The notes under the pieces: generated by a model | Database searches by the model: none | What the model saw: only the letters and a program-made list of their open reading frames with translations | What the model was told of the DNA's origin: nothing | Position numbers and translations under genes: made by a program | Assembly: GCA_001414485.1 (NCBI GenBank) | Contig: LLEY01000013.1 | Location: forward strand, 434,001-498,000 | Reading direction: 5' to 3' | Origin: Calycina herbarum | Lineage: Eukaryota > Ascomycota > Leotiomycetes > Helotiales > Pezizellaceae | DNA: 64,000 nucleotides | Shown here: positions 15,700-57,925 of the stretch, one piece after another | Layout of the letters: every line of letters starts with the position of its first letter | Position numbering within the stretch: the first letter of the stretch is position 1

Positions 15700-18223
15700 T
15701 CAAAACATCTGCTCACTGAACTGATAAGAAGCATCTAAAAGTTCAAAAATGTCACCAACACCATCGAATTGGTCACCAAACAGGTCTAATGGCCCCACCA
15801 ATTCCGGAAGAGACTCAAAATTAGTGGACCAATTCTGAGGAGCCTCGCCTGGTTGAAAAGATGACCTGTTTTCCGAACTGTTCATTTGAACATCCCGGTC
15901 AGCTTGCGGAGCTTCCCGGGGTTCTGTCATTTGAGATTGCGGGTGTTGTAAAGCTGAAGAGGGGTTTTGCTGCTCACCCTCAACCAGTTTTGTTCCTGGA
16001 TTTTTTCCGTTCGTGGCTTGACTCGACGAATGAGGGCCATGCGCTTCTCCAAGACCACTGCCAGTCGGGCCATCTGTAGATGATGATTCGAAAAGCTTGT
16101 TTCCGAGGGATTTCTGGAGATCATTCAACGCTGTAGCACACGCCCCCGGCCAAAAGTTCCCTCGCAAGGACAGATTCTCCAGTATTTTAACACATCTTTC
16201 GGCTTCTCTGCAGGGTGTCAATAAAAGTACAACAAAATACATGCAACAGTTTAACTTGCCTTTGAGCTGTTCCGATGGCATAGTGGTTTTTTGAGGCAGC
16301 ATAAAGCAATATCAATCCACTAAAATATGTAACGTTAAAAACATTTGCAGAGCAATTCGTTAAGAGATTTGGAGTTTGTTCCGCGAACAGCCATCCCCTG
16401 ACCTATTACTCCAGCGTTTCTAGGAAAATTATAAAAATTCTCCGAGAACGTTTGGGAGAACGAGAGAACACAGCTCTTCATTCCCCTAAATCATCTTGGA
16501 AAATATCTACAATTGTCCTAGACATTTAGCACATCCATACTATAGGAAGCCACAGGTGTACTGAAAAGAAAGCCCGTTTATCTTACCTCATCCAGATGCA
16601 CCAAGCAAGCCCTGGCCAGCATAATGGGCTTTTTATGCGCCCATTCTTCGACCCCGCCTCGCTTATTCCTGTAGATAGGTGCCGATACACAGCAGAAATT
16701 ATTTGTTTAGAAGCCCCTATACACTTCTGGATTGCTGCCGCATATAGAGAGCTCTCTTCTGCCGCTGCCGAAGTAATAACGGGTCTGTTCAATAGAATAA
16801 TTGATTCGTGTTGCTGCACGATTAGCCAAAGCTTGTGAGAGTCTTGGAGGCTTCCACCTTGGCAGTTGGTCTCACTGCCGGTCTCATCATCTATATACTG
16901 AGGCTCTAAGAGGTCTTGAGCCTCATTCCACCACTTTGAAATTTCCGCTTCGATTTGCGCGACATCGAGAGGATCCGTATGGCGGTGCTTCAAGGTTTTA
17001 TGTCGCAGCTCTAGAATGAGACCTTTAATATACGCATGCCGAGCGAGAAATGTTGGTAGTAATAGTAAGCGTGGGTTTACTGGTGAAAATTAGACAGAGG
17101 TGACAATGGGGCGCGCTTTCCTCTAAGGAAACCTGTTTTAATAACGAATGTGTGGAGGGGTTTGGGACAATTACATGTATTGTCCGGGGAGGTTTAGAAG
17201 AATTAGAAAATCGACTTCTCAATTCTTCCAAATGCCCCCGCACAATACTTATAAATTTTCTCAGAGTTTCTGAAGTAATAGAGGAGGTGGGTATGTAAAC
17301 CTCAGGATTCTTACCACGAGGTTTCTGACATGTGGTGACCAACTCGGCACCTTGGAGATGGTGTTCCTTGTTAGGGTAGCATACATCGACATCATCGTCC
17401 TTGATCTCGAGAGGCAGCCCAAGAGATTGAGATAGAGTACGGGAAAGACTGTAAATGGCCCAGAAGACCCTACTCCCCAAAATTTCGGGGTTAGTTTACC
17501 ATGACAATGTGTGAGAAAATTGAAAGTACTCTTCAAGAAGATTTAGGAGAATTAGAAACTCGATTTCCTAATTCTTCTAAATACATTCGAAAAATCGCAA
17601 ATAGCCAGGACTCTGACTCACCTCCGCCTCGTGTCCGAATCGTGGACGTTAAACTGCTTGTACTTCGAAGGACAGCGATGGAGTCCTAAATGAAAAACGA
17701 GTCGAGTTATGAGACCTCCAATTCTGGAAGCAGCATTAAGTCGCAACATGGAGATCAAAAAAACTTGGATAGCAACAGCGGCCTGGAGTCCGACCAAAGT
17801 AGATGGTCGTAAAATAACGGGCGTGAGGCAGGTTATGGCCTCATCGATCGTGTTGAAGACCAGAGTGGATGGGACGGGATTTTCGTCACCCAGCAGCATC
17901 TGTCTTCGATCTGCTATTGAGATCGATAATACTGAGCGAGCTATCATAGCCTCAACATCAGTCAGACTCTGTATGCCGGATACTGAAGTTTTCTCTAGAA
18001 TGTCTAGGACGGTGGCTCCCTCAAGAAATGGAAATGGCGGATGCCAATTGATGAAATAGGGTTCGCTCCAACGGACCAGATGATCGAACGGTATCTGGTT
18101 GGGGAGGACCTGTGCAGCAGCAGACACTTCGTTTGGGTGCCAGAGGGAGGCTTCTTCCAAGGCCTGCACCTGCAACTGGTCATCTTCGCCAGGCAAGAGA
18201 GTCGGGATTTTCTCTGGGTACAC
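15700..18223 (-). CDS. Fungal-specific transcription factor (Fungal_trans domain); N-terminus unresolved, introns carry hairpin elements
   Basis: Exons on the minus strand are 18223-17622, 17469-17315, 17022-16587, 16319-16260 and 16207-15700, joining in frame to about 586 residues. FINWHPPFPFL, ISMLRLNAASRIGGLITRLVFHLGLHR and RRVFWAIYSLSRTLSQSLGLP are hallmarks of the Fungal_trans (middle homology) domain. AWCIWMS-GLILLYAASKN and a Ser/Gln-rich acidic tail follow. Introns are 152, 292, 267 and 52 bp; the last uses GC..AG. The three long introns each contain a copy of a 40-nt hairpin element. Upstream of 18223 another related element (18253-18389) probably sits in a further intron. No Cys6 zinc cluster is readable up to about 18690 in any frame, so the DNA-binding part is missing, degenerate or further upstream. 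The gene may be non-functional. Confidence 0.75.
16451..16490 (-). repeat. 40-nt hairpin element, divergent copy in intron 16320-16586
   Basis: On the plus strand the arms are TTTGGGAGAACGAGAGAA and TTCATTCCCCTAAA. Element sequence with GACAATTG lies alongside at about 16510-16530. Relative to the copies at 17193 and 17542 it is in the opposite orientation. Confidence 0.6.
17161..17260 (+). repeat. Introner-like hairpin element in intron 17023-17314
   Basis: The element begins TTTGGGACAATTACATGTAT and has the 40-nt hairpin at 17193-17232 (TTTAGAAGAATTAGAAAA / TTCTCAATTCTTCCAAA). Outer complementary arms, ATTGTCCGGGG and CCCCCGCACAAT, enclose the hairpin. It sits wholly inside an intron of the transcription-factor gene. 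Confidence 0.75.
17501..17600 (+). repeat. Introner-like hairpin element in intron 17470-17621
   Basis: The 40-nt hairpin at 17542-17581 has arms TTTAGGAGAATTAGAAA and TTTCCTAATTCTTCTAAA around CTCGA. It is preceded by CATGACAATG, matching the leading part of the other copies. It fills most of a 152-bp intron. Confidence 0.75.
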
Positions 18224-18252
18224 CTGCTTTTTGTAAGTCGTGTGCAAAAACC

Positions 18253-18389
18253 CCCTGGAACAATTTCGTCCATTGTCCGGGAAGATTTAGAAGAACTGGC
18301 ATTCGTTCTCCGAGACCGTTTGACAGAATTTGGGATCCAGATTTAAATTCTTTCAACGCGCTCAGAGAATGAATGTAATTGTTCCAGGG
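18253..18389. repeat. 137-bp element with 13-bp terminal inverted repeats, related to the hairpin family
   Basis: CCCTGGAACAATT (18253-18265) is repeated inverted as AATTGTTCCAGGG (18377-18389). Inside are ATTGTCCGGGAAGATTTAGAAG (18271-18292) and an imperfect version of the hairpin arm, so it belongs with the intron-borne elements. It lies just upstream of the first supported exon of the regulator gene. Confidence 0.65.
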
Positions 18390-18689
18390 TGTCAAGGCAA
18401 AGGAGGAGTTGTAGGCCAGGTCAGAGGAGAGCGTGGGGTTCATACAAGGTTACGATTGTGAGAAAAAGCTGACTGAACTGCTCGAACGAAATATATTCCG
18501 CTTCCGCTCCCGACGAAGCTCGACGAGCCTTGAACTCGACTTGGCCTCATGTGGCCATGTTCTTGCGCGGTGTTTGCTTCATTTCCTCGAAGTGCCGATG
18601 TGTTGGAATGTCTACGGCGTTTCCTTCTGGACTGGGTGGAAGATGACTCCATCGCGCATTGTGTTGTGGAATTATTGGACATGATTTTG

Positions 18690-19384
18690 AAGCTTCGTCG
18701 GTCCGCGGTTGCACGGATCTATCACATGACCTATTTTAGTCTCCCCAACCCTGCAAGAAGTAAGAATTTCCTATCATTTATTGTTCATATTGGTCTTTCT
18801 TTAAAATAGGTACAGTCTTGTATCCCTTAGGATCAATGCTAAACAAGTGCTTAAGAAAGAGCCCTGGGCCGTCACGTCAGGCAAACCCAGGAAATCTTTC
18901 CGGGCTCATTTCCAGGTTGTGATCCGTAATAGGTGTATGGTCGCATGTCACATGTGATGAATCAACATAAAATGCGAGGAAAATGAGCCTATATGCATGT
19001 AAAAACTACCAAGTGTTGGTGAAGCAGTTAGTATTTTTAAGGTGTTAGACAAACCATCGAAAGGTCGTGGTTGGTTGATGGGGAAAATAATTGCATATGC
19101 TAACTCTGCTTATTCGTTCAAACTTGCGAGCTTGCGAGTTTGATGCTTGAGAGAGAGAATAATGGAGACATACCTACAAGTCACTTACAAAAAGTCCATC
19201 TGAAATAATTTAATGCGTGTCGGACTACGGCCGCCGGAAAATGCCAAATTTCAAGTATTAACTTGATATTGTATTGCTTTGAATGAACATCGAACCGGCC
19301 TGATTTCAGATTCTCATTTCTCACAAAAGGGTGGATACCATTTCCTAGGCTGCTCACAAAATACAAGTTTGCCAAAGTTCACAT
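18690..19384. other. Intergenic, no gene recognised
   Basis: No supported gene was seen between the regulator and the P450 relic. Confidence 0.45.
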
Positions 19385-20867
19385 TCATGAAACCCTCTTC
19401 AGTTGAACCTCCAGCGGTTGCTTCTCCCATGTCCAAAATATCTTTTGGTCAGTCCAGCTCGGCAATTTGTCCCCATCAGGTACACTGATATCAAAGTTCC
19501 AGAGTATTCTTGCTAGAATGATTCTTAATTCGACCCATGCCAAAGGCTGTCCCATACAGTTGTGAGGACCCATAGAAAATGGATGGAAAGTTGACCTATT
19601 GTCATTTTTATAAATTGAGTCGGAACTCTCATCGAGCCATCTTCCGGGCAAAAATGTATCTGGAGACAAAATTGGTTTTGGAGTAGAAAGTTGCCCAGCA
19701 TGGAACACCAACAGTCATCTTTCCGGGGATCATATAGCCACATATTGTGACACCCCCCTTGGGAACTTCGCGTCGTAGGTTATCCGGAAGTGGTGGATAC
19801 ATACGCAATGTTTCGTTGAGCACTGCTGTGAAGTACGGTATCGAAACTATTGCAGATGCTGTGATTTGGTCTTCGGAAGGAAATTTGGAACGTATGACGT
19901 TCACCAATTGCTGCGCAATGTTTGGATTCTTGAGAAGATGATAAATAGCTCCAGATAAAGCAGTGGTGATTGTTTCGCTTCCTGCTACAACGATTGCCAT
20001 GGAGTTCGCTTCGATTTCTCCCGGAGTAAGTCCAACTTCTGGGTGTGCCTTGTTGTACTCGATGATATGAGCCATGATATCTGGATGATCTGCTTCTCGT
20101 GCTAGGCGAGCTTTGACTTTATTGTGGGCGTGAGAGAGAGCTCTTTGCAAGTCCGCAAAAGCGGCTTTAGGCAAGATGCTCATCAAGAATGCATCTAACC
20201 ACGGATAATAGCGTACAGAAGTTCCCTTGAGGACTTGTTTGAAATGAAGCACAACCTTGACCCAAGGATGATAGGTCTGTTCTTGCAAACAGTCGAAAGA
20301 AGCCCCTCAGCCTAAATCTCCAATAACATCAAACACAGTGAAATTGATCCACTGAACCAAATCAATTCTACCAGGCTTTTCTTCACTCTTATTCGTAGCT
20401 TCCTTTAGTCGCTTGATTAAAACGTCCACATATTTATTGACGGTATGTTCGTGCTGTTGGGTGGCTTTCTCGGAGAATGCGGATTGAAAAGCTCGACGGA
20501 ACCGAGCATGATCGGCCACCGGCGCCGAGATAACATTATGTGCCTTCACATCTAGAGGACGAGAGCCCCAGATTTTTGGTCGAACAAAATCCTTCCTCAG
20601 ATAAATGTCTTTCCAAGCGCCGGAATCTATAAAAGATAACTCGTCGCGAGTAACTCGTACAATGTTGCCATATTCGCATGGAGACTCTTTATGCGGTAAG
20701 GGAGACTGCCACCAAGCATCTCGGTAATGAATGGTATTTTGGAGACTGCCCATAGTTTTGGGCCTGGGAATTTGGCAAGTGGATGGAAGTAGAGATTGTA
20801 AATTGCGCTCATAGTAATATAAGAAACGTACTATGAAGCTGTTAACCTTAAACACAGTTAAATTCAT
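19385..20867 (-). pseudogene. Cytochrome P450 pseudogene with several frameshifts and a stop
   Basis: All P450 landmarks are present in order on the minus strand. They are an N-terminal hydrophobic segment (FIVRFLYYYER), YNLYFHPLAKFPGPKL, I-helix VAGSETITTAL, the ExxR motif ETLRMYPPLPDNLRRE, DTFLPGRW, and heme-binding FSMGPHNCMGQPLAWVELR. The reading frame is broken near 20805 (before the YNLYFHP segment) and near 20672 (before YGNIVRV). A TGA interrupts it at about 20301-20306 (DVIGDLG-stop-GASFDC), and another break lies near 19660 before DTFLPGRW. No intron can repair these. The architecture resembles CYP65-type secondary-metabolism P450s (inference). The intact ancestor would have been about 495 residues, an ordinary length. 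Confidence 0.85.
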
Positions 20868-21849
20868 ACCTGGGATTTACTTACGCTCAGAATGAGGAGG
20901 ATGGAACATTGCGTAGCCAAAATTTGGAATTCTCTGAAATATTGTGGGGTTTGTTGATGGTGGGGATTTCAAGATTTCTCAAGACTCTCACTTTTTGTGC
21001 CAAAACAGAGAGACAAACAGTTTTGCCAGGGGAAGTGCGGCAGAGCTCTGCCTTAAAAGTGGAAGGTGATACCCATTTGTACTCGGTGACAACACTGGTA
21101 AAGACATCGTAAATTACCAACAATTGGGTATTGGATATACTACCTGGCAGCAGGGGATGGGTAGGAATGTGCCTTAACCAACAAGCGAGCTTACCCTGGG
21201 GGAGAATTGGCAGAATCGCATCAACTTTGATGGAAAAGGAATGCATCGGCCACAGGTGTGTATTGCATATTAGCACAATCCTTCTACTCTGTCCACGCAC
21301 TCTGTGCCACACAGTGGTATGATGATTCTTCCTAGACCTTTGACGGAAGGTTGTAAAGTTGTTTGTTGGTTGGAGGTTGGAATTTTGAAGCCCAATGTCC
21401 AGCTCGTCCAGGGGCGACTGTACGGACGGGTACCTGTCACATGATATCTCGTTACCCCAGCATGTCGTTCGTGTTTCCAAAAAAAAGAGAAAAGAGAAAA
21501 GAGAAAAGAGAAGTAAGAATTTTTGTTTACGTATTGTTCAGCGTTCAAAATAAGGACTCTTTTATTCCCCTCAGGGGTATGATAAGGATCACGTGATATA
21601 CACAGAAGAAGTCCTGCCTTAATCTCGGCCCCTCCTCCCGTCAACCCGGGAAAGAGAAAAAAAAGCAATACTTGATACCTCCTATTATTCTAAGCTTCAG
21701 TACAGTTATGTCCAGTTGCTAATACTCTCCTTTTGGCCAGCTCTCATTATCGCAATGCGGAGAGTGGCGTGGGCCGTGACAAACGCGATCCACTTCTCCC
21801 CTTCTGCTGTCAAATTACAGCATCTCCCACTCCACGAGCAATCAGCTCC
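20868..21849. other. Intergenic with an AAAAGAG tandem repeat
   Basis: No gene was recognised. A purine-rich tandem of AAAAGAG lies at about 21480-21512. Confidence 0.5.
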
Positions 21850-23007
21850 ATGAATAAAAAGGGCGCTCGACTGGAAGGCCTGCGAGGCCTCGAAACTACC
21901 GGTGATGAAAATAATATTAGGGCACATGTGAATGAAAGCACCACAAACATGGCCGACAACACATATATTTCTCCAGCTTGCGAGGCATGCAAAAGAAAGA
22001 AGTGCAAAGTACTACTCCTTGAACTGCATCAAGATCTCCAAGCTAACTTTATTTTAGTGTGATCGACAAGTGTAGGGAAACGCGGCCCTTCTACTTCCCC
22101 TTCATTGAGATGGACTCTATTATTGACTTAGTCAGGCCTACCTGCGGTCAATGTGAATCTTCACGAATGCTGTGTAAATATGCAGAGAGTAACAAGAGGT
22201 CAGTGCCTTTCGTGGTTATATTTGGACAGTGCTGATGACACTAGGGGCATACCAACAGGCTATCTCGGATTGCTCGAACAGAGGCTCCAAAAAACCGAAG
22301 AAGCGCTGTATAAAACACTTTCCGAACTCAACTTGTTGAAAAGCAGTGGTCATTCCTCAGATTCCGGCAACTTTGTCTCCCAGGAGCTGCTTCGCCGCGA
22401 TTTAAACGCAAACAAGCATGCAAGAATGGAAGAGTGGAAAGAGTACCCACTGGAAGGTCCAGGTGCCATCGAAAAATGGCAGCGATATATGAGAAGAAGC
22501 GAAATAACTTCTGATGGTAATTTTCCATTGTTTTAGTTGATCCAAACAACTGACACCTTTCGAAGGCGAACCAGAAATCCCAATTGAATCCAACCGACCA
22601 TATCAGAACCCAGCACCAATACCATCAACACCTATTTCCGAAGTGAGATCGTTATATTATGATATCAATATGAACTTACCTCCCCATTTCCTGGCCGCAA
22701 CCCAAAATCATTCCTCAGGAAACTTTCGTCCGTTTGTAGACAATGCCTCGTCACTACACATTCAAGCTGATTTAACAACCCACGAACACAATCAGCATTA
22801 CAACAAAGCACCTGCTACGGCCAATGAAGAGAAGAGATTGGTGAAAGATTTTCAAAGTAACAGTGCTGAAGCCTGGCAAGGTATGTCCCATCCCATTTTC
22901 AAGTCGATCCTAACCATCGCACAGGGCAAGGAGAACAATACGAGGAAGAACCCCAGTTGACACAAGCACAACTATTATATTCAACAATGAAGCACATTTA
23001 TTATTGA
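21850..23007 (+). CDS. Zn2Cys6 transcription factor; N-terminal half clear, remainder degenerate or truncated
   Basis: Exons 21850-22008, 22058-22071, 22136-22198, 22245-22516, 22566-22880 and 22925-23007 join in frame. Together the first three encode a perfect binuclear zinc cluster, C-x2-C-x6-C-x6-C-x2-C-x6-C (ACEACKRKKCKCDRQV then PTCGQCESSRMLCKY). A linker and a short coiled coil (GLLEQRLQKTEEALYKTLSEL) follow. Introns are 49, 64, 46, 49 and 44 bp. The second exon is only 14 nt and lies within the zinc cluster. The start could be 21949 (MADNTYIS) instead of 21850. The frame stops at 23007 after about 301 residues. Downstream to about 23900 I can find no convincing Fungal_trans domain, so the protein is either short or truncated. 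Its neighbour is the GMC oxidoreductase. Confidence 0.7.
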
Positions 23008-23998
23008 AGTCCCGCGAGCGAAATCAGATAACGATTTCTGTTAATAAAAAAATCCCCATTCAGATTGCCGGCCACGAGAACTTCAGTACTTGTCGGAAGG
23101 TATGTGTATTAAATTATTTGCAAATGTCAGCCCTGATTTAATCGCGGATTGGAAACCCAATGTCACGTGGTGCTCGTTTTGTGGGTGCCCGGTGAGTCTA
23201 TTCGAATTAATGACTGTTTTTCTTGTTCTCATTTCTTTTTACCTTCCCGAATTCCGTCGGGAGCTCGTATCCAATATCACAATATGCTTCTCATTTGTAC
23301 ACCTAGGAGGTAGAGGAACTTCTTGCTTTCCCAGTTTAGCAGCACGTGTTTGTGAAAATCTCGATGGGGATACCATTATGCTAACCCCATTGTTGATTGA
23401 ATGCCTATGGGCTATCCATCTCCGGTATCCCCAAATCCCGGCAAGACGACCAGATGCGCAGGACTTGCAATCGAATGATTTGGCCAATCAAAGTAAGTTT
23501 TGTACCTTTTTCTGAGTTTCGGGGTTCCGGTAATGCATATCTCGTTTCAAATTTACATGCACCGGGCTTCTGTTTCTCGTCATCTTCGCTGACTGCTGCA
23601 CCAGACTCACCCGTTGCATTGCAGTATTCATTAATCAAGGCAATTGTATGGTTTACCAAGGGTAAGCACTTACGACGAAGCGAATTGGATCAACTTTTTT
23701 ATGACAAAAGATCTTACTCATCTTCAAGCAGGTTACATTCATCCAATCCTAAGTTGCACGACATATCCCATCAGTGGACGTTGTGGGTCACTGTGTCTGT
23801 GCAAGTCAATAAGATCCGTTCCTCCTTGGAGATGCTAAAATATCATTGGCTCTATTCTCTGGCACCAGCCACATTGACCCACAATGTCCACTGCCGCACC
23901 TGATGGGATACCCCTCAATTACCCCATACCTCCCCGCTACCCCGCCAACTTCTTTCAAACAATCTACACAAATCCAATCGAATTGCAGTTGTATCGAA

Positions 23999-25941
23999 AT
24001 GACTGAAGTTTATGATTTTATCGTTGTGGGGGGTAAGTTAAACCTACCAAAGCTGCAAGTATCAAAACTAATTAAACTTCCAGGCGGGACGTCAGGCTGC
24101 GTAGTAGCAAGCCGGCTAGCCTCTTCTCCCTCTGCGCCCCGAGTTCTCCTCATTGAAGGCAAGTGATCCTACTACTAGAAATGAAGATTGAAACTGACAA
24201 TAATTTGCAGGCGGTGGTGCAAATTCCAATCCCGCATTTCGAACACCAGAGAATCGCTGGCCGCTAGTATTTACCGAGCCATCTGTCGAATGGGGCTACG
24301 TATCTACTCCGCAGATGCATCTCGCTGGTCAACAAATCCCCGTCCCTAGAGGTAAAGGCCTAGGAGGCACCAGTGCCGTCAATTTCGCTTGCTGGTTGAT
24401 TGGAGATAAAAATGATTTTGAGGAATGGGCCGAGTTGGTAGGCGATGATGATTGGAGATGGGAAGGGGAAAACGGAGTCAAGAATCGATTTAGGAAGATT
24501 GAGAACGTGCATGAGGTTGGTGAAGGTGTCAGCGAAACTCAAAAGGTTTTGGCAGATAATGAGCTATTGAAGTTGCATTCCAAGGAAGGAAAGGTTGATC
24601 TATCTTATGACCAGTTCTGGGAGGGTCGTGAGAGTATGGCTATTCAAATTGCACAAGAAATGGGAGTATGTTTAGTCACATTTCATTCGTTTCTTAAGGG
24701 GAACTGCTGCTAATATAAGATAGGTTCCAATTAACGGTGATAACAACTCTGGGACCCCCCGCGGCCTTGGACTATCCCCTTCCACATTTTACAAAGGTGC
24801 TCGTGTCACTTCTGCTTCGGCATACTTGAGTTCACCGCCAGCAAACCTTACCATAGTCACGGACAGCATTGTGGACAAGGTCCTTTTCGATGAATCTAAG
24901 CGAGCGACCGGAGTTGTGACCATTGAAGGGACAATCTACAATGCATCTAAAGAAATTGTGGTTTCCGGTGGTGCTTTCGATTCTCCAAAAATCCTCCTTC
25001 GATCTGGAGTTGGTCCAACAGATGAACTCAAGGATCTTTCGATTCCGGTTATTCATCATGTTCCGGGTGTCGGAAAGAACCTCATGGATCATTGTCTCTG
25101 TATCACGACTCATCTTCTGAAAGAAGATTATGAACCGGTTATCAACCCAACCCGAGACCCGCTATTCAGCACTAGCGGTCAATGTCCCATGGCTTGGGTC
25201 CAATTACCAAGAATTCTCGAGTCAGAGGAATGTAAGAAATAACTACATCAAGAACATGTATGTTGTCAAAGCTAACACTCAAAATACAGTTCACGAGCTC
25301 CCCGGAAATGTGAAAGCCCACATCTCCAAAGTGCCAACAACCGAAATCATGATCTTTGGCGTCAACCTAGGCCTACAACTACCAAGAGAAAACGCCGAAC
25401 TCCTCAACATCTCCATAGGTCTCATGAACGGACAATCAAAAGGCACAGTGAAACTCAGCTCCTCAGATCCAAAATCCCCCGCACTCATCGATCTCCAATA
25501 TCTCTCACATCCATACGATCGTCGAGTTGGAATCGAAAGTATCCGCAAAGCCATGGAATTTGGAACAGCACCTACTGTGAAAGCTCTGTCCGAAACTGTG
25601 CTACAAGCTCCAAAGAGCGACAGCGATGAAGATATTTGGGAGTATCTCAAGGAAAAGATTAATCCCATTTTCCATTTTGCGGGGACTTGTAAGATGGGGA
25701 AGGAAGAGGATGATTTGGCGGTTGTGGATAAAAATTTTAGGGTTCGGGGTTTGAATGGCTTGAGGGTTGTGGATCATAGTGTTGCGCCTTTGATGGTTAA
25801 TAATCATGTACAGAGTACTTGTTACCTCATTGTAAGTCTTTCTATTTCTCGTTTCGATAACTTTGATGGAGGTTCTCTCGCTAACTTCTTGGATAGGGAG
25901 AGACTGCTGCCGAGAAAGTCATTAAGGAGTATGCGTTGTAA
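23999..25941 (+). CDS. GMC-family FAD oxidoreductase (choline dehydrogenase/aryl-alcohol oxidase-like)
   Basis: Six exons (23999-24032, 24084-24158, 24211-24665, 24724-25231, 25290-25831, 25897-25941) join in frame to 552 residues. The second intron uses a GC donor. The FAD-binding motif is VVGGGTSGCVVASRLA near the N-terminus. GGTSAVNFACWLIG is the first GMC signature and GAFDSPKILLRSGVGP the second. HFAGTCKMG and the C-terminal VVDHSVAPLMVNNHVQSTCYLIGE contain the catalytic His region. There is no signal peptide, so the enzyme is probably intracellular. The family oxidises alcohols or sugars with FAD. The substrate is unknown. It is the only intact redox enzyme in the 15.7-26 kb accessory block. 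Confidence 0.9.
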
Positions 25942-45000: not shown

Positions 45001-45354
45001 CCCGCACCCAACTCAACCCAACCGACATCTTACAAGATATCGTGGAACAGACATCAACACCCTTAGCTGCCCTGTGTTCAATCCTCACCTCAATTGCATA
45101 AGCAATCCACCCTCCGAGAACACCAAAAGCTCCAATACAAACCCCTCCCCTCCATACCCGCCGGGCCCAATCTCAGTCTCAGTCTCAGTCTCAGTCTCAG
45201 GCTTCCCCATCATCATCGTCAACACCCATCTCGGAGCACCAGGTCGGCACGTCCTCAGTGTCCCACTTGAACCCGACGAAACCCCAATTCTCCGCAAGCG
45301 ACTTGGTGCGTGTCAAGAAGGTGTGGATTCGACAATCTCCCCAACATCCAGAGC
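39078..45354. other. 6.3-kb gene-poor region upstream of the bZIP gene
   Basis: No frame in either strand has recognisable domains. Microsatellites include (CACT)n at 39375-39407, (GAAA)n at 40186-40212, AGAGT/AGGGT repeats at about 44164-44207, CCACCT/CCTCCT triplets at about 44605-44645, and five TCTCAG units at 45171-45200. A strong TATA box (TATATAAAG, 43198-43206) followed by a pyrimidine-rich stretch suggests a transcription start 2.1 kb upstream of the bZIP ATG. Confidence 0.5.
43198..43206 (+). promoter_or_regulatory. TATA box 2.1 kb upstream of the bZIP start codon
   Basis: TATATAAAG is followed within 25-60 bp by CAACACCCTTCAACCC, a plausible initiation region. No coding gene begins between it and 45355, so it may drive a long-leader bZIP transcript or a non-coding RNA. 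Confidence 0.4.
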
Positions 45355-45477
45355 ATGATTCATGATTCTTACAACATGCCACCAGCCTCAGCAACCGACA
45401 CCATGTCCAGCGCGTGTAGCTCAATCAGTCCTGCTGCCATGGAGGAGGAGGAGCCCCGGAAGAAGGGTCAGTGGAGC

Positions 45478-45520
<43 letters not shown>

Positions 45521-46908: not shown

Positions 46909-49900
46909 AGAAGCCTTTGCAAAGTCATCATCACGAATTTTCTTTTTCCGCAACTCCGGGCAAAAAATGATGAATGAACTATTGTATTTATGCCTGTATT
47001 CATGGGTGGTGGGACAGTTATTATAACAGGAGGCCGGACTCTTTTTTTCGTATAATATTTTTACATATACCGCTTTCTCTTTTTGCTTTCCTCTTCTACT
47101 TTTTGTTGGATTATGGAAAATGAAGAAAATAGACATTATTAGATGTCGGTCTACAGAGACAATAATCTGCTACTACGGTATTGGGCGTTGGCAGGGATCT
47201 TTTTTACTTGGAAGCGAAACGAAGGGTGACTTTTTGGGAGTTACCTGGTATCGCCCACGGCTACTTTTTTCTTTCAATGTATTTTGGAGATATCCCTGGG
47301 CGTCGGAGGCTTATTTGTTTGAGTTTTGATTACTTTTGCTCTTGCTCTTGCTTTTGCCTCTGGCTTTATATCCTCTCGCACTAGGCGCGGAAGGCGCGGA
47401 AGATCATTTCTGCTGAAGAGGCGGGAGGTCTTTGGTAGGAGCGTGAGATGTCCTCCAGATCTCTTTTCAGATGCATAACGAACAGACTAGTTACTACAAT
47501 TGTATTTTTTGTAATTTTGTTTATGAATCTCGGTCTACTTACTTGGTCACCGCTACCACATTGGCATAGTCCATATAAGAAGGTTGGTAGTTGCGAAGGA
47601 GTCTAGGACAATTACATTCTCCAATTCTTCACTTCACAACTGTCCAAGGATTTTCTGAGTGTACGCAGAGCATGAAGTCGTACCTCTCATCAGAGTTCAC
47701 ATGAAGTTATGCGACAACCGGTTTCCGAATGCGAATGGCCACGGGTTACGGGCGTGTGGCCATCGGGGTATGTGTGTCCGTCCCCTTTTAGAGTTTGATT
47801 CTTTGGTTTGGTTTTGGAAAGGGTGGATCTTTTGTGGTGGTGTTTCTGGAAGGAAGATCGGATGTTTGTAGCCGAGCCGATAGATACTTCTTTGTGGGTT
47901 TTTTTGGTAGGGACCGACCTGAGGGAAGGGCAACATTTGAATTTTTTTTTCTTCTTCTTCACAACTTTCGTTCTTTCTTTCTTGAGGAATGGAGTTTTTT
48001 TTTATGACGAGTGTTCTGATGGGATTCAAGAAGATGATGGGTCAAGTTGGGGGATTCCCATGGGCGTGTGTTGATTGGTTGGTAGGTTTGCGACGTGGGG
48101 GGAATCGATCGGGATTTGACGGCTTTGCTGACCGTTCCCAAACTCTAAAACAAGAATTCATGGGACGCTTTCGGGTGTTGTGCTTTTATATGAAGGGTGT
48201 TTTTTAATAACCGTGTTATTCCCAGATTAATAGGCGGTACTTCCTGGGTTTATCAGGGTTGGAACCTATCTGAGCGGGTATTTCCCGAAGGCATCGACTG
48301 GTATTGTTGTCTTCTTTAGGAAGAGGGAAACGTGGGCTTCGGAGGGAGGACTGTTGACTGTTGACTGATGGCTGGGATAGGGGGCGGTGGGAAGAGACGG
48401 GAAAGCTTGTTGTTGGTTTAGAGTTTTTATTTAAGTTTTTTTTGTTTTTGGAGTGTTTGGCATGGGGAGGGATGGTTGTGACGATGTGGGCTGTGGGCTG
48501 TGGGCTATGATGGGTGTTAGCCGTTGGGGTTTTTACACATGGGGTTGGGGATCGACGGATTAAGTGGTCTTATTTTTGGGGGGGAGAAGTTTGAAATGAA
48601 GGGGTGGTGGTGATTCGTTGCTCTTTTCTATTGGTTCTAGGGGGTGTAGTACTGGGTGGGGGCTTTACAAGGGGGATCCGAACCATGAATGATGATATAA
48701 GAACTTTCGCATTATCAGGTTTATTATGGATGACGTACTCTTGGAAAGAGGGAGGTATACAGATAAGCAAGATGACGAAAGACATTCGAGGGATTCTTGA
48801 TTGTTGGACCCTGGAAATCTTTGGCGTGGGCGGGAAAGTATAATTGAGTGAGTGCAGCAGGATGAGGGATTGTGGGGCGTGGTGGGAAGTTAGTTCTTGG
48901 AGTCGGGTGTTCTTCTTCCTCTGTTCGTTCTTTTCCTCTTCTGGACCTTCACTTTGTCACTTTGTGAGGGAATGCAAGCCACGTGTTCCTCCTTTGTTTT
49001 GTAGCTTTTCCTCCTAGACCTTTTAGGTTGAAATCCTGTTGGTTGATTAGGTAAATATTTGATGTTCTGGGGAATGCCCGTCTCGCGTTCTGTCGGTCCG
49101 TCGGCCGACGGTCCTTGTTAAGCGAACAGAAGTCATAGACGCCGAATCTATACTTTTTCGATTAACTTTTATTCGACATCTGAAGGATGTCCCCGTTTCC
49201 GATGGTGCTGGAAGTCTTCTAGACCCGTGTCATTCGACTGGGTTGTCACGTTGTTTTAGCATCTGGGGCATCCCCGTCGACGACGGTATTTGTTAAGCGA
49301 CCGCGACCGCGACGCGAGACGGGGATCCAAGGGGAAGGAAGGGATGGGCTGGTTGGTTTGCATACTTATGCCATTTTGAGTTGGCGTTCACCACGTTCCG
49401 TAAAGCGACAGACTGTTCTTGGAATTCAGCCTGAAAAAGGATAAATGAGCACTGCTTTTCCGCTAACCTAAACTCGCATGAAACCATCATTTTGGTGACA
49501 AGGGTTTTGATGACTGGAAAAGGGCCCTATGACTTTAAACTGGGGTAATAGACTTTTACGGTGAAGTGACCGAGTCATCTGTAGGTGACAGGGCTTTATT
49601 TGTATGACTGTTTGCTTTACACCCGTTTAGGTGTTGTACAAGATGCGTTGTTGAGCTGGGACGAGAAAGGTCGAAAATCTTTGCGGTCGAGAAAGAATTG
49701 GAAGATATGTTTTCAGTCTATAATTCTTATTTAATAATGACCTGCCTCGTCTCAAAGCCTCTTTCTTATGAAGTTATCTCCGCAAACACGGTCATTTCCC
49801 AGAAACCCATCCGTAGTTGAAAGTCCCCTACGTAAGAAAGTTGGATACCTCTTTGGGCTAGGTCAATCCCGTCATCTAGGTCAACTCACTTCCCCAGGTA

Positions 49901-51064
49901 CTTACAAACAACGGGGTTGGAAATAAAGATATTATTTGAGGTCTACAACAAAATAGGATCTGGGATATCCCCGAAGGTGTGGCGGGGGAAAGTTAGCCGA
50001 GATATGTGGGGATATCAAGTGCATTACAATTTTGCGAGGCATTATTTCCGTGTTCGCGGTGGAGAGAAAACTTTCTGTTTGCATTGTGCGGATGATGATT
50101 GCACTGAGAGGTTGTCCTCTGTTGTCCTTTTTTGAAGAAAAATCGTGGCACCAGGGGGTCTAGGAATTCGTAACTGGTCAAGAGCAGAGTAGAGTGAGTA
50201 CCTTCACGCTGCTCTCTCAACTGTTCGATGAGGACTTGGAAAATTAATTCGATTATCCCACGAGACTAGGACAATATGATTCATGTTGTATTCATTGTTC
50301 TAGAAGAGTTAGGAGAGTTGCAGAAGAGGAAGGTGCCTTGGACTATAGTCACGAATTCCTGCCGCCCCTGGTGGTGGTGTTCATAGCTGTGGCTTACGTT
50401 GAGAACGTGTTATCAGGCTTGTGCTACTTATCTAGAGATAAGCCTAAGCGTAAGTCCCCTTAATTTGTCTGTTATCATAGTCGCAGAATTAAGAAATTAT
50501 CACTTTTTTTTAGCATCGATTAAGGCCATTTACCCTACCTTGATATCGAAGTAGAGGCTGAAACCTCGCGAGTAGGCCATGAGTTTGCAACTTATGAGCA
50601 AGGTGGGGCAATCCCCTCTTGAGTAACTCACTCCCTTGAAATTGGAGACCAAACCCATTACAAGTGCTCGGCTATAATCTAAACAAAGGGGCGTACTCGG
50701 TTGATTTTTAAACCAAAAGGTTGTCCAATTTAAGCGAAATACTTCTAGGGGCATGAAGGGGTGTAGTTATACGTGGCTACCATGGCCTTTTGACTTCCCA
50801 TTTCACGAATGATTTCTGAAAATGACAACCGTAAGATACTGATTACTCGAGACTAATCCGCACAATAACTGATGTTGTGTAAAGTGGTTTGCAAGATCAT
50901 ATAGCACAACGTTTTTACTGACCCCCACGAATCGCTACATTCACTGGTGGGGGCACGCTCAATTTATCTTTCACTCGCGTGTTATGCTCTTCCCCAAATG
51001 CTGTGCTTTCTAGAACTTAGTACAACTGCAGATACGAAAGTAAAAGTTCAAACAGGAAGACCCC
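46909..51064. other. 4.2-kb gene-poor region downstream of the bZIP gene
   Basis: No gene was recognised. It contains a palindromic repeat element at 49077-49323 and two weak matches to the hairpin element family (GTCTAGGACAATTACATT at about 47602 and ACTAGGACAATATGATTC at about 50265). Confidence 0.5.
49077..49323. repeat. 247-bp structure with terminal inverted repeats and internal palindrome
   Basis: CCCGTCTCGCGT (49077-49088) is repeated inverted as ACGCGAGACGGG (49312-49323). Inside are the 12-bp palindrome CGTCGGCCGACG and two direct copies of TTGTTAAGCGA. Three diverged units resembling CATCTGGGGCATCCCCGTC are also present. No clear target-site duplication was found. Confidence 0.5.
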
Positions 51065-53105
51065 TTACTTAAACCACATCATTTCACACTTCCTTTCGTC
51101 GAAAGCCTCCCCAGCCATTACACCATGTAAATAACAATCTCCAACCAACTCCAAAAGGACGTCTCTATTTCTCACAACCAAAGGAACTTTACTTCCGGCG
51201 AAGAGCGCGACCAAGTCCCCTACTTGCATATCCCGAGGCCCAATACCAATATATCCCGTTTCGGTACGAAACATTCTCCTGTGAGGTACTCTGGTAAGCC
51301 TCAACCCTGGAATCATGGCACCCGAAGTGCGTTCGTGATAGACATCTGCCATAAGATTATACATCATCACACCCCATGAAGCACCCAGATAAGTCTTTTT
51401 GTGGTTGTGCAGCCCCATCTTGTGTAAAAAGCGGAAACGTTGTGAGTTCTTATCCATTTGTTGACGTAGAGCACTTGTACTCTCGAATTCTTCAGCTGGA
51501 TTTCCCGCTTGGAGACATTTGTAGTATGCGTCTAGGATAGGCTCATCTGTTGCTGTGTATCTGGATATAGAACGTGCTTTTGCTACCGCTTCCCAGCTAT
51601 TGTATATTGTTTGGGCTTGTGGAACACTTATATAGGGATTGGAAGTCGGGTCGAGGTCCCAAAGTGCACCAATGTCAACAATTCTGTCCAAAATGAACCC
51701 AGAGATACCCAGAAGTGGAGCTAGATCTGTTGGAGTCTCACGTACTAGAATCTCTGGTGGGACAAGTTCGTGAGACTGGGCGAGTGGGGAGGAAAAAACT
51801 CTAGGCTCCTCCAAGTTGGAATATTTGACAATATGTACATTAGGAATGGCCCCCCTACATGCATCAAACCCATAGTAATTGTCGCAAAAGGTTTCCGCGA
51901 GGTCGCACTTCTTCCAATCAGATACCCAAGATGGCAAATCTAAATCGTCCGACAACTCTGGTGGGGATATAACTCGGGGAACTGCCAGTATGTTGAGCTC
52001 CGCTGACCGCAGTAGAATTGCCATTGCTGTCTCTATATATACATCCTTCGTTTCCAGACGGTAGTCTAAATTGAGATCCAACATCTCTGGGCCACAATCA
52101 TTTGCAATTCCATGAATTGCAAAGACCTTGTCTTTGGGGAGTGTTGCATCACATGGCCGATGTTGTTGGAGTAATGTGAGAATTCCTTGGCCCTCTTTGT
52201 ACTTGAAAGAAACAAAACCAAGAAGCAATCCTGTAACTTGTCTAAACTGCAGACTTCCAACTGGATAGATGGCCTTCAAAGCTGGTGTTGAGGTGAAATA
52301 AAGAAGAGCTTTGGTAAAATCGATCCACGAAACGGAGGAATCACCACAATCAACAATGGCATCCGAAGCGACAGAAGATTCTTGGATGATCCAAACGCGC
52401 CCAAACTGGAGAAGAGAGTTAGAGATGTAATGACCTGAATAGTTGAACTTGACATACCCATGGTCGGTCAAGCAACTGAACGAAATCATCCCACGGGTCC
52501 TTTATCAGCTTCCCATCCGGACCCTTCACAACACCAGGAACACGACTTGAAATCTCAAAAATTTCTTTCGGGGTCCCTTTGAACTTATCATCATACGCCT
52601 TGACAAGAAGTTCCACAAGACCAAACGCTCTCTTTCCACTATCCGGTCCACTATCCTCATCTGGTCCATCGTGACCTAACCATATAACGACCCTGTTCGC
52701 CTTTTCGTAAATTTTTCGCATAAGAGGGACTTGTTCTGCCTTTTCATCGTCATCCTTTTGATTGATACAAATTGCATCTGCCCATATCGTCCTCGGCTTG
52801 TCTGGATATCGCAGGTGACACAATGCAATATTCAAACTGTTATGGATAACAAGATTCTGGTTGTTGCATCGAATCGTGATTGGAAATGCTGCGTTTTTTG
52901 TTCCACCCCAGCAGTAGGAGAGAGCTTCGAAATTAGGGGGCTCTTTGATATTGTCGAGAGGTATAACTTTCAGTTGAAGTCGCAGCATTTCGGTCGTAGA
53001 ACCTGGGAACAGCTCAACCACGCGAATAGAGGTCTCTCCTTGTGCACCAAGCGGCACAGCTGAATAATTGAAATCATCGACCATAATTCTTCTATCCAAT
53101 TTCAT
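51065..53105 (-). CDS. HET-domain (heterokaryon incompatibility) protein
   Basis: Two exons, 53105-52458 and 52405-51065, flank a 52-bp intron and encode 662 residues. The HET domain (about residues 55-235) shows the three classic blocks. These are FEALSYCWGG, TIWADAICINQKDDDEKAEQVPLM with RKIYEKANRVVIWLG, and after the intron GRVWIIQESSVASD. The C-terminal part has the usual GDLVALFAGSKVPLVVR and GDCYLHGVMAGEAFDE segment. HET proteins trigger regulated cell death when genetically different hyphae fuse. The gene is intact. A decayed fragment of a related gene lies just upstream at 53460-53620. Confidence 0.93.
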
Positions 53106-53459
53106 GTATCTTTCAAAACAATCTTCATTACAATATTTTAAGGTGCTTATCGGATTATAATTGCTTCTTCAGCCGCACCTTGCCCGCCCTGTGCTCAACC
53201 CCATGCTCAGCCATTGGTCGTTATAAATAGATAATATCAGAGCCTGCACTATCTGGGTGATGAAAGTGTCTTGTTTGAATTGATATTAACCACTGGACGA
53301 GAGGGACCTCGGTCGCTTCGTGGTGCTTGGGTCAAGTCGTCAAAGAGGGAAGGAACTCCTCACACTCCTTCACACGACCCTCCTGAGTTCGAGACCTGCG
53401 TTTCGGCGAGGGTGAGACTCATGTGATTCCAACCTCAAAATATCCAGCAACTGCGCTGA

Positions 53460-53620
53460 TTCATCATCGTCATTTTGGCCGACACAAATGACATATTGTC
53501 CTCGTTGCAGCCCGCAAGTGGCACAGTGCAAAGTTCAAACTGTTATGGACAACAAGAATCGACTCGTGGTTGGATGACCAGCATTCTAAGTCCTACTCTA
53601 GCCGCGGGTCACCAAAGGAG
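53460..53620 (-). pseudogene. Fragment of a second HET gene
   Basis: The minus-strand translation includes HNSLNFALCHLRAATRTI, aligned with HNSLNIALCHLRYPDKPRTI of the intact HET gene. The frame then runs into several stops. DNA identity is visible over AAACTGTTATGGAYAACAAG and TCATCRTCGTCAT. It is a partial duplicate or relic of a paralogue. Confidence 0.65.
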
Positions 53621-53679
53621 AAGTACATTTCAGCTCACACTGCTTGACCATTTCGGTTGTTTGGTATTTATTGAGCGAC

Positions 53680-53994
53680 CAGTAAGCCAAACAAATATCG
53701 AGTAACTCGTACAACATCTGGGGGTCAAAAGAAGAGCCCCGAGTAAGCCACCAACTAAGCTATACGAATATTTGGAGGCCAAAAAGAAGTCGCGAGTAAG
53801 CCAGCAATTAATCAGTAGGCCCCCACATCGAAAGGCTGAGTTACTTACAACTCCATAGCTTACTCAACAAATCAATGAGTTGCTCCCAAATCTACAGCTT
53901 ACTCGCAACGGTCTTGGCCTCCACATGCTGTGGGTTACTTATGAGTAAGCCGCCAACTATCTTGCGAGTAAGCCGCGAGTTACTCACGAGTAAC
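53680..53994. repeat. Field of (C)GAGTAAGCC heptamer repeats in both orientations
   Basis: GAGTAAGCC or close variants occur repeatedly in direct orientation, and AGCTTACTC occurs inverted, separated by 10-50 bp. CGAGTAACTCG and CGCGAGTTACTCACGAGTAAC create small palindromes. No coding frame runs through it. Confidence 0.6.
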
Positions 53995-54941
53995 CACAGC
54001 AACAACCATCTAACCCCTTTCGTATCAATTAATTGTAGTCTTTTCTGCGTAATTTGCGATGCATCGGTCTTTATATATATTGAATAGACATTGGTAGTGC
54101 CCTATTTGATTGAACTGAACTCTGAGTATAACCGTGGTTTGGGGATCCCAATTCCGATTCGGACTCTTTTTGTTTTGTTTTGTTTTTGAGGAATCACCGT
54201 ATCAAAGAGGTCATCATTCTAGTCATATCTTAATCCTAGAATTATTGAGATGATGGAGGAACGATACAAGCGGAATAACCCTAGGGGGAGTTCTTATTGC
54301 TACCTCGCCGTTTTTGCAGCGCATTGAGTAGCTCATAATTATTTCAATTTGGGATCTTTAACTTCAAATTAATAGGACAAACTCTTTCAAGTACTTCCTG
54401 ATGGATTAACCTATATAGCCTTCATCTTGAATCAAGTACATTGGTTGCAGCGTTGAGGTGAAATGGGTGGAATCCTAAACATTTTATTAAGCGAGGTTGT
54501 TTGACCTAGGTTGGAATGCGTGAACATAGTCTCGAGGCACCCTCTTCAACCTGTATAAATAATAAAGAAAGACAGACTACCAGAAGTTCAGAGAATCATG
54601 AAGATGGGCGTCTTGACCATTAATCAGTACATGTTGAAAGTTAAAAGAAGAAAATTATTCTAATCGTTCTTGAAAAATTTGAAAAATCAATCACGCAAAA
54701 GTAAAAACAATCAATTCTCTCAACTCAATTTGAGGATGTAAACTCTCTTGTAAGTTTAGAAGAATATTTTTGTGTGAGAATTGTTACGAGGATAAACCTC
54801 AACTTCATCCTAGGAAGTGTCTCGGCATAGGCTCTCCTAACTATCCACCCCATATGCAGTATAATAAGACTTCGCAGCCTCGTCTCAACCTTCTCTATTA
54901 CAACAATTTTACCTTGCTTGCACAGCAAGTATATAACAACC

Positions 54942-57152
54942 ATGGCGCAACCAACAGAATACCTCGCTCTCTCCCCCACTCAATATCTCCTCATCCTCCT
55001 CTCCCTCTGGCTCATCTTCGAACTCCAAAGAAGTTTCCGAATCTTCTTCATCGGTCGTCCCGTGGGCCTCACCTTCACCCCAATCTCCAATTCCCTCTCT
55101 TCTAACAAAACACCAGAAAAACGTCCCAGTCTTCAGTCTCCCAACCTATCTCGGCCGATGGCTTACCTCACTACTCAAAGGCTGGAACGCAGAAGCCATG
55201 CACCACTCCGCATACCTGGCTTCCAACCATTCAACCTACGCCATACCAGCTAGAAACCAATATCACGTCTGTGTCTCGACTCGAGAGATGATCGAGGAGG
55301 CTATGAATGCCCCGCATCGGTATCTTTCACTGCAAGGAGCTTTCTTTGATGTTTGTGAGCGATCTCTTTAATTTCCTTTTAGCTAGAAATGGATGTGCTA
55401 ATGTCTAATGGGAATAGAGGATCTTCCTAGAACAAATCATGAACGGTCTGAAGATCAATGATACGGATAGTTTTGAGGGTGTTTCTCAGAATGTGTTTGG
55501 CCAGCACCTTAGAAAGAATTTACCGGATATGGAACCGTTGGTTAATCGTACTTTGAATGAGGCATTCGTTGTGGAGGTTGATTCGGGGAAGGTGGTTGGA
55601 GATGGTGAGGGCTGACTCTATGAGCTGGGTTAAGTGTTGTTGTGATGTGCTGATGATAGTAGGCTGGCATTATATATCCGCAAATGCATCGGCTAGCTCT
55701 ACGGTTGTCAGACTTGCCGCTCGTGTCAACAATGTGGTCTTGGTTGGTGAGAAGTTGGGTAAGTGTTTTGAACCTTTGAACCTTGGGGATTCCTATGGAC
55801 TTACATTCGCTTAGCAAGCGACCCCGTATTTTTCGACTGCACGATGAAGTATATAAAGTGGTAAGTTGACCTTTACTATTTTTATGTTCACTTTTGCTGA
55901 TCTTCAAACTAGGTCCGTTATATGCGCTGAAACCTTATCAATCACCCCAAACATCTTGTTCCCGTAAGAATTTCCCTGGACCTGCCGGGTACAAGGAATA
56001 ACCAGCTAAAATGATAACCAAAGATTCGTGACTTGGTTTACCATGAAGCGAACTGGTGCCACCGCCAATCTCTGTGTTCAACTTTCTGCCCTCATCGACG
56101 AACGTCTCGAAAACCGATACGAGAAAAAGGAAGATGCTGTAAGTATCACTATCCCCACTATCACCACTTCCCCATGAACTCCCAAATTCATCATCCCTAG
56201 GTCGATGTCGCACAATGGACTGCAAACTGCGAAAGAAAGACTACACCCGGATGGATTCTAAACCAAATGCTCGTCTACATCTTCGGTTCCGCCCATCAAT
56301 TACCTCTCGTAAGTACACCCCAAGAACTTCGAATATTTGCTGATGGAACAAGTTGGTCTGTTACGCTCTCTACAACCTCTGCAAATATTCAGAATACATC
56401 CAGCCTCTCCGAGAAGAACTCCTTAAAGAAGGAACTGATTTCGGTCTCAACAACACTGAATTACCACTCGTGGATAGTTTCCTCAAGTACGTCTTCGCTG
56501 CCCGATTCCCACCCTTCCCATACACACTACAAACTAACATCCCTCGTCTCCAGAGAAACAGCCCGTCTCTACCCAACAACCTACCTATGAATGTCCCGCA
56601 AGGTCCTCTCCCTCTACACCCTCTCCGACGGCACCCATCTCGCCCCCGGAACCTGGCTAGCAGTTCCCTCCATGGAACTAAACACCGATCCACAGAATTA
56701 CCCCGATAACCCGCTCGCCTTCAATGGTTTCCGATTCGTCTACCAGAAAGAGGATGGTGATAAGGGTGAGGGCGAGGGAAAGGCAAGTGAAAGTAGACTT
56801 ACACATCTGAGTTGGAAATTCCCATTTTGGGGAGTATGAATCATGCTTGGTATGTTGTTTTCCCTTTCTTCTTCCTTTGACTCGTTCCTTTGCAGAGCCC
56901 TAGTTTGTAGGTTGCTTGGCTCGTGGTGAATCAATCGTTGGTTGGGTTGACGATAAAGTGGACTGGCACCAAATCAGTCCCGCAAGAATGTACGCCTCCA
57001 TCCTAGTAAAGAAGATCCTCGCAAAATTCATCATGGAATACGAAATGAAGCTTGAGATCCCCGAGATCCCTGATACCTTCACCTGGGGCATGGCCAGGCT
57101 TCCACATCCAAACTTGGGCTTCTTGGTTAGGAAGAGGGGTGTTGAGGCTTGA
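54942..57152 (+). pseudogene. Multi-intron cytochrome P450 gene inactivated near its 3' end
   Basis: The ATG at 54942 starts MAQPTEYLALSPTQYLLILLSLWLIFEL, an N-terminal anchor. An intron at 55062-55116 (branch CTAAC) leads to KNVPVFSLPTYLGRWL. Further exons spell HRYLSLQGAFFD, LRKNLPDMEPLVNRTLNEAF, LAARVNNVVLVGEKL, DPVFFDCTMKYIKWSVICAETL and FVTWFTMKRTGATANLCVQL. TPGWILNQMLVYIFGSAHQLPLL and the ExxR segment KETARLYPTTYL follow. A TGA at 56589-56591 interrupts YPTTYL-MSRKVL, where the family normally has Ser. The heme region SMNHACPARMYAS needs a one-base frame change near 56830 and a 128-bp intron at 56850-56977. The protein resembles CYPs of the ent-kaurene-oxidase-like fungal group (inference). 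Two lesions near the end suggest recent loss. Confidence 0.75.
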
Positions 57153-57925
57153 TTAATCGTTGGGGGGTGGGGTTAGTGTGTTACAGGGCTTGCAAGTATA
57201 AATCGAGATGATAGAGCGATATGGGGATGTCTGAAGGAAACGAGAACGGATAGCGAGCAAGCAGCTTGTGGGCAAGTGGTGGGGTAGTGAGCGTAATAAA
57301 AGTTCACTTCAACATCGGGCAAGAGAGAAACTCATGGCTACGTGGACCTTTTTTTCTTGCGACTCGAGTAGATCTTCATAACTGTTTGAGGCCCTTGAGG
57401 AGAATGGATTCTCGCAAAACCTCTCGCACCATCAAAAGCAAAGCAAACTTGCAGCCAAACTGCAATATAGGGGTAGGAGAGTTAGTCAGTCATTTTAGGA
57501 GAATTGGAAAGTCGAGTTCCTCATTCTCCTAAAGCCTTCAAAACAATACTTTGCATTGTCCCAAACTGTTTCACACAATCAAAGTAAAGCAGATGCCCAT
57601 GCAGCAATGACCAAAACTCTTACAAGAAGTCAGATAAAAAAAAAGCCAACTAGTGGTAATCAGATAGGAATCATGAAAAGAGCAAGTTCAAGGTGAAGTA
57701 AACAGGAATGCAAGGGTATATTCTACCTCTCTTCCTAAAACAATCTAGAAGAAAAGAAGTTCTCTCAAGCTTTTCGCATAGATGTACAATATCGTTCAGA
57801 TAATACCCCAATATTATATCCCAACGCCTCATAAAATGCAACGCCAAAAGACCAATATCCACCCCTTCGCTCCCACTATCTCATCCTATCCCCTCACCAC
57901 CACCACCACCATTATATGTCGCCAT
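57153..57925. other. Convergent intergenic region containing a hairpin element copy
   Basis: No gene. The hairpin element copy is listed separately. Confidence 0.5.
57470..57562 (-). repeat. Intergenic copy of the 40-nt hairpin element
   Basis: The hairpin at 57494-57533 has arms TTTAGGAGAATTGGAAA and TTCCTCATTCTCCTAAA around GTCGAG. Read on the minus strand it is preceded by GGGACAATGCAAAGTATTGT, matching the leader TTTGGGACAATTACATGTAT of the copy at 17161 about 40 kb away. Confidence 0.75.

Follow-up and report, generated by a model that had tools for sequence, protein, structure and literature searches.

The 64,000-nucleotide (nt) stretch of Calycina herbarum DNA considered here (assembly GCA_001414485.1, contig LLEY01000013.1, positions 434,001 to 498,000; hereafter the window) carries copies of a dispersed family of foldback elements about 218 nt long. 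With a probability of roughly two in three, this family is a TA-type foldback miniature inverted-repeat transposable element (MITE), a non-autonomous cut-and-paste transposon that acts as an introner through predicted splicing. The evidence establishes a dispersed foldback family with inverted ends, a G-TA-C target, edges that form splice donors, and insertions in two genes whose homologs run through the insertion site. A sequence-only reading of the window had described four 40-nt hairpins at 16451-16490, 17193-17232, 17542-17581 and 57494-57533. The hairpins are present at these positions, with 65, 85, 100 and 88% identity to the reference copy. Their proposed form, two arms around a CTCGA loop, holds apart from the copy at 16451, which has no such loop. 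The unit of the family is not 40 nt long, as had been thought; the hairpin is the centre of a longer element whose inverted ends begin with GTAAG. Taken as a whole, the earlier observation is partly confirmed and its interpretation partly supported.

The host genome comprises 68.8 Mb in 379 contigs. A DNA search with the window copy at 17140-17270 returns 46 matches (best non-self E 2.2e-22), with some copies matched on both strands. The hairpins are thus not isolated, and the family is dispersed as the sequence-only reading had proposed. These matches fall in 30 loci (28 distinct places), where the inverted ends GTAAGAATCCCGGGCTTTGCTCTGCGTACACC... and ...GGTGTACCCAGAGGAAAGCCCGTCTCTCTTAC recur many times. 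A 32-nt end pattern, GTAAGARWCCYGRGCTTTGCTCTGNGTACACC, has 111 genome matches with up to three mismatches and none for its reversed control. A second variant, from the opposite end, has 17 matches against 0, and a 35-nt core pattern has 50 against 0, again with some copies found on both strands. Used by itself, the 17-nt hairpin arm discriminates poorly (281 matches against 200 in the control). From the fetched loci and the window, 105 distinct copies are called (E up to 1e-5, exact duplicates removed). All copy counts are lower bounds that rest on the end and core patterns and one DNA search.

Both ends are found in 34 copies. The element is 208-221 nt long in 27 of them, including 14 of 217-218 nt, and the remaining seven measure 177-200 or 245-253 nt. 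There are two subfamilies. With the ends lettered A to D (labels coined for this analysis), type 1 combines A with B (GTAAGAATCCC.. and GTAAGAGAGACGGGC..), and type 2 combines D with C (GTAAGAGTCCTGAGC.. and GTAAGAAACATGGGC..). The elements are short, non-coding and uniform in length, with terminal inverted repeats that match each other, as in MITEs. They occur in both orientations, and their similarity reaches across the full inverted repeat to the flanking TA at each end. Of the window copies, those at 17193 and 57494 point in opposite directions. A GGGACAAT..ATTGT block that had been noted as a leader common to copies at 17161 and 57470 is indeed shared, but in the second copy it lies on the other strand, at about 57542-57562 and not at 57470. 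The closest pair, L067 and L072, are on different contigs and 96.3% identical, which indicates recent movement of the family.

The element proper reads AGAA...TTCT and is flanked by TA, usually also by G and C, although the frequency of this G and C is biased because the template for placing the ends began with GTA. On the simplest reading the target would be G-TA-C, with the TA duplicated on insertion. A TA target duplication marks the Tc1/mariner group, and Stowaway-like and other Tc1/mariner-derived MITEs are short, duplicate TA, have inverted ends and occur in many copies; the present family is like them in all of these features. In the aligned copy flanks there are no repeats outside GTAAG...CTTAC. 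The left flank leans weakly to ATAT, each position of which is matched in 13-15 of 32 copies, and the right flank weakly to ATA (11, 15 and 10 of 34).

The TA duplication is supported by two insertions at which the joined flanks restore the motifs of homologs; presence and absence between species were compared at the protein level. The copy L029 interrupts a gene for a TolB-like protein with PD40 repeats. Joined at a single GTAC, its flanks read KWSPDG-TPLV-YYEITREETWNAHRPED, also given as WSPDG-TPLV-YYE. A script parsed this motif in 99 of 120 listed homologs. Exactly four residues separate DG from the aromatic-E motif in 94 of these; the other five have three residues, and at least two of the five matched a different repeat. 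P0145, a relative with 90% identity, runs through the site as KWSPDGTRLVYYEITREQTWNAHRPED. The second insertion is the copy in the coding sequence of a transcription-factor gene in the window. Its flanks, joined at G-TA-C, read NRNLVPGEDDQ. Among 15 aligned homologs (of 120 listed), VPGEDD or IPGEDD is present in all 15 and LVPGEDD in nine. At both sites the homologous proteins continue uninterrupted.

Because G, TA and AG together spell GTAAG, a consensus 5' splice site stands at the left edge of an insertion whichever way the element is oriented. In the forward orientation of type 1, a branch-point-like TTACTTAC is followed within a few nt by GGCAG, 31 nt before the right edge, and the right arm reads CACATTACTTAC-AAAA-GGCAG|GTGTACCCAGAGGAAAGCCCGTCTCTCTTAC. 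By calculation, a cut at this GGCAG would replace the 4-nt GTAC with 31 nt, a gain of 27 nt, or nine codons, in every phase. Read in three frames, the 31-nt tail of the copy L008 has no stop. We infer that the spliceosome would remove forward type-1 copies as new introns and leave behind a tail that preserves the frame.

Four forward type-1 copies are recognised in coding sequence: L008, L006, L019 and the window copy at 18445-18193. The L008 host is a polyketide synthase with PS-DH and PKS_DH_N domains. Predicted splicing at the homologous internal GCAG is in phase in all four copies, and all three phases are used. The predicted intron is in phase 1 in L008, between open frames of 461 and 467 codons, in phase 0 in L006 (277 and 253 codons), in phase 2 in L019 (141 and 166 codons), and in phase 0 on both sides in the window copy. 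The fifth copy in coding sequence, L029, is a reversed type-2 copy at a point of near-constant length in homologs. If the element were retained, translation would run into a stop within 29 codons in every one of the five. All four forward coding copies preserve a strict CTTAC-N-GCAG, as do 5 of 31 other right arms of type 1; L006, whose arm the end-caller missed, was added to this count by hand. In two polyketide synthase alignments the L008 junction falls between aligned blocks, so that the nine residues are neither confirmed nor denied. Judged by reading frames and homologs, introns of the kind expected of an introner are predicted in several unrelated genes, namely the transcription-factor, polyketide synthase, L006, L019 and TolB-like genes, with the element reversed in the last.

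An acceptor supplied by a flanking AG beyond the element was also considered. It suits the copy L101 and the window intron beginning at 17314 but fails for the four forward copies in coding sequence. In L101 (G000:C336:126000-127020, element 408-623) the right edge CTCTCTTAC and a flanking AG would make a polypyrimidine acceptor, TTACAG, in an open frame. This arrangement would be a second way for an element end to act in splicing.

The host gene in the window (15700..18682, minus strand) encodes a fungal-specific transcription factor whose homologs carry PF04082; the best of these, HYFRA_00008154 of Hymenoscyphus fraxineus (Helotiales), is 72% identical. The gene has five predicted introns and an otherwise intact frame. 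Copies of the element are present in four of the five, at 18445-18224, 17621-17470, 17314-17080 and 16586-16320. The sequence-only reading had placed three of its four hairpins in introns of one gene. This placement is upheld, and the same gene contains a further copy, at 18193-18445, that had been overlooked. This copy (18193..18445, minus strand, with model matches and both ends present) is the forward insertion in coding sequence described above. Its predicted intron, GTATGA ... GACTTACAAAAAGCAG, occupies 18445-18224. The 31-nt tail at 18193..18223 would be kept in the exon after splicing, encoding VYPEKIPTL and joining LPGEDDQ.

The other three copy-bearing introns are likewise on the minus strand. 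The intron at 17470..17621 (GTGAGTCAG..GGGGAGTAG, 152 nt) contains a decayed copy with its core at about 17507-17597 and its hairpin at 17542-17581. Its predicted spliced product, RRR^VFW, equals the nearest homolog, and others read RRRLFW. The intron at 17080..17314 (235 nt) has the element end as its 5' splice site, GTAAGAATCC, with the copy at about 17102-17314 and the hairpin at 17193-17232. The acceptor predicted for this intron, AATTTTCACCAG, falls some 22 nt outside the element, and the predicted product is about one residue longer at the junction than most nearby homologs. In the intron at 16320..16586 (267 nt, hairpin 16451-16490) the opposite end of the element supplies the 5' splice site, GTAAGATAAACGGGC. 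This copy, at about 16361-16586, is reversed relative to the gene, and the predicted spliced product WM^SGLILLYAAS equals the nearest homolog. The fifth intron, at 16208-16259 on the minus strand, appears to be of GC-AG type (GCAAGTTAAAC..ACCCTGCAG), and its joined product AQREAERC is as in homologs.

The window contains two further partial copies. One, on the plus strand at 57494..57623, includes the hairpin at 57494-57533 and is outside the neighbouring coding sequence (open reading frame 57926-58939, minus strand). The other is a weak match on the minus strand at 15376..15558, just past the 3' end of the transcription-factor gene (model matches of 24.9 and 19.3 bits). Separately, a 44-nt inverted repeat at 7593-7636 and 8068-8111, with arms 93% complementary and 431 nt apart, is possibly a different small inverted-repeat element.

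Across the genome, five of the 105 copies interrupt coding sequence, 13 read as intronic, and 87 are not placed in a gene, being either outside recognised coding sequence or ambiguous. The 13 are the three in the window gene together with L004, L014, L018, L021, L022, L023, L026, L037, L060 and L101, the last being the least sure. When 103 copies were scanned automatically for coding sequence on either side, 10 could be placed, of which eight are kept (L014, L019, L021, L022, L026, L029, L037 and L060) and two, L045 and L100, are left unplaced. The scan missed L006, L008, L018, L023 and the window copies, which were placed by reading. It found coding sequence on one side only for 38 copies, some of them also placed by reading. 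In L023 and L004 the joined exons give ABC2_membrane and 2EXR domains that are unbroken across the junction. At least five of the 13 intronic copies (L014, L021, L022, L037 and L060) read as lying inside older short introns with their own splice sites. The idea that every intronic copy is a new intron was dropped on account of these five and of L004, which reads as lying on an older 5' splice site. The L004 element (1450-1664), in a 2EXR-family gene, appears to occupy the GTAC-type donor site of an intron older than itself (GTACGAATAAG..AAAATAG) and to regenerate GTAAG there.

A crude scan of the fetched sequence gives a coding share of 0.40 and a share of intron-like gaps of 0.014; random positions fall in coding segments 92 times out of 276 (0.33). 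Against either coding share, the five coding copies mean that coding exons are avoided about seven- to eightfold. Introns are over-represented several-fold (13 of 105 copies against the crude 1.4% share), a ratio that is overstated by an unquantified amount because the intronic copies were found by reading and the background share by a stricter script; the enrichment calculation itself was run with 9 and 12 of the 105 copies. The earlier claim of enrichment in introns stands to this extent, but the majority of copies have no gene assigned, and there is strong avoidance of coding exons. The bias to genes that is typical of ascomycete introner-like elements is not seen: 18 of 105 copies are placed in genes, whereas the coding share alone is 0.40.

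The whole element is a decayed palindrome. Over 46 copies, mean identity to the copy's own reverse complement is 0.62, compared with 0.51 after shuffling, the median whole-element fold z is -5.75, and 43 copies fall below -2. The four window hairpins also fold individually, with shuffle z from -2.3 to -3.8. Changes in the core stem were compared with 500 shuffles in 18 copies and 20 pairs. Two-sided cells number 13 (5.8 in shuffles) and the covariation score is 0.253 (0.192 shuffled), neither of which is reached by any shuffle. Five pairs have two-sided change (2.7 shuffled; reached by 22 of 500), and further pair types are at the shuffled level (20 against 19.5; reached by 252 of 500). The covariation is mixed, and the two diverged subfamilies in the alignment confound it and can by themselves produce such a signal.

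The fold does not by itself support the suggestion that it is maintained as RNA, since palindromy is expected of a foldback DNA element, and no claim of a selected RNA fold is made for the core stem. It is very unlikely that the copies represent conserved, structured non-coding RNAs that reside in introns. A stable hairpin with some two-sided changes and the strongly negative fold scores would agree with such a family. The similarity covers the entire element to its TA-flanked ends and both orientations occur, neither of which suits a structured RNA, and an Rfam search of the window finds no family at gathering scores. Another very improbable reading is an ascomycete introner-like element resembling those of Dothideomycetes, which would multiply through RNA as excised introns splice back in reverse. 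Fungal introns that are nearly symmetrical and occur in many genes are known (PMC8469720). Reverse splicing predicts none of the 31 nt past the predicted acceptor, the inverted ends, the TA duplication, or the many copies outside recognised coding sequence.

A more credible alternative, though still an unlikely one, is an ordinary TA-type MITE with no role in making introns. The GTAAG would then be a coincidence of the TA duplication, the coding copies would mark damaged genes, and the remaining copies would be tolerated in introns and between genes. The avoidance of exons, the 87 unplaced copies and the five copies inside older introns agree with this alternative. It does not account for five coding copies in otherwise open reading frames, or for the shared internal acceptor at which four forward copies are in phase and which is preserved in 4/4 of them and in 5/31 others. 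The earlier proposal of a non-autonomous introner-like family agrees well with the high copy number, the inverted ends, the TA duplication, the 5' splice site at the edge and the in-phase predicted splicing.

Several observations weigh against the transposon acting as an introner. With only 5 of 105 copies in coding sequence and exons avoided, the intron would rarely rescue an insertion. Under random phases, four copies would all splice in phase with a probability of about 1 in 81, and the result is partly expected because insertion was into an open frame. The CTTAC-N-GCAG contrast is suggestive, the motif having been chosen after the copies were inspected. The in-phase acceptor of L029, TTAAGTAATAG|ATGG, is a weaker match. 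The L006 gene has no homologs at E 0.001 and the L019 gene matches no Pfam family, so that the empty sites of these two copies are putative. In the window protein the nine added residues do not lengthen the linker. The 15 aligned homologs have other residues at the position of VYPEKIPTL, and the linker of the nearest homologs is equally long (13 residues to PGEDD). This equal length is compatible with insertion but counts against a clean gain of nine residues; a loss of about nine residues nearby must be assumed.

The mobilising enzyme adds to these points. DDE_1 transposase domains are abundant (150 of 801 candidates scored, many with TAG stops), as are DDE_3 domains (115 matches). Among the DDE_1 and DDE_3 matches listed, no transposase with the element's ends is found, and a comparison by eye places none of them closer than about 5 kb to the listed element-end matches. 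Among the 150 listed DDE_1 matches, many of pogo type have in-frame TAG and TAA stops but few TGA; this bias would fit repeat-induced point mutation.

As a TA-type foldback MITE acting as an introner, the element would insert into G-TA-C and duplicate the TA, and the insertion would leave a GTAAG donor at the left edge in either orientation. The spliceosome would remove GTAAG...GGCAG and keep the last 31 nt, so that an exon insertion would cost nine codons in any phase, with no frameshift. The palindromic middle may shorten the intron by folding. With age, copies may come to use ordinary acceptors, as in the remaining three copy-bearing introns of the window gene. Copies would also land in existing introns, once on a GTAC-type 5' splice site (L004), and should be harmless there.

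The family resembles the DNA-transposon introners of algae, dinoflagellates and others in its inverted ends, its target duplication and the splice site at the element edge, as these are described in a survey of 175 introner-bearing genomes by Gozashti and colleagues (PMC9860276). It differs from them in that its duplication is only TA, its added tail is 31 nt (+27), and most of its copies are not placed in genes. The same survey describes Aureococcus introners that bring both of their splice sites and lengthen the coding sequence (12 bp), and it sets ascomycete introners apart as being without marks of DNA transposition, their families having neither inverted ends nor target duplications (PMC9860276). 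The present family is an ascomycete one and has both. Like the introner-like elements of Dothideomycetes, it would supply repeated introns to unrelated ascomycete genes, and several copies can share one gene; those elements are described as near-identical introns in genes, whereas the present copies exceed the predicted intron and behave as a transposon (PMC4457414). The internally symmetrical stwintrons of Hypoxylaceae are likewise palindromes that spread as introns in fungi, their inverted ends measuring 45-55 nt; they are described as inserting seamlessly without duplication, unlike the TA duplication here (PMC8469720). No ascomycete introner is described as a TA-duplicating transposon in the open-licence literature on introners, MITEs and intron gain, within the portions of it that were accessible.

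A wider proposal is tentative and somewhat doubtful. An ascomycete DNA transposon may carry a complete phase-neutral intron, with a donor rebuilt in both orientations and a stop-free 31-nt tail costing nine codons, and may have been shaped by selection to survive in genes. Such a transposon, rather than RNA copying, might be ancestral to the symmetrical introner-like elements and stwintrons of ascomycetes.

The mode by which introns multiply in ascomycetes is unsettled. If the present reading is true, an ascomycete family that combines inverted ends and a TA duplication with extragenic copies and a built-in intron would connect ordinary transposons directly to new introns.

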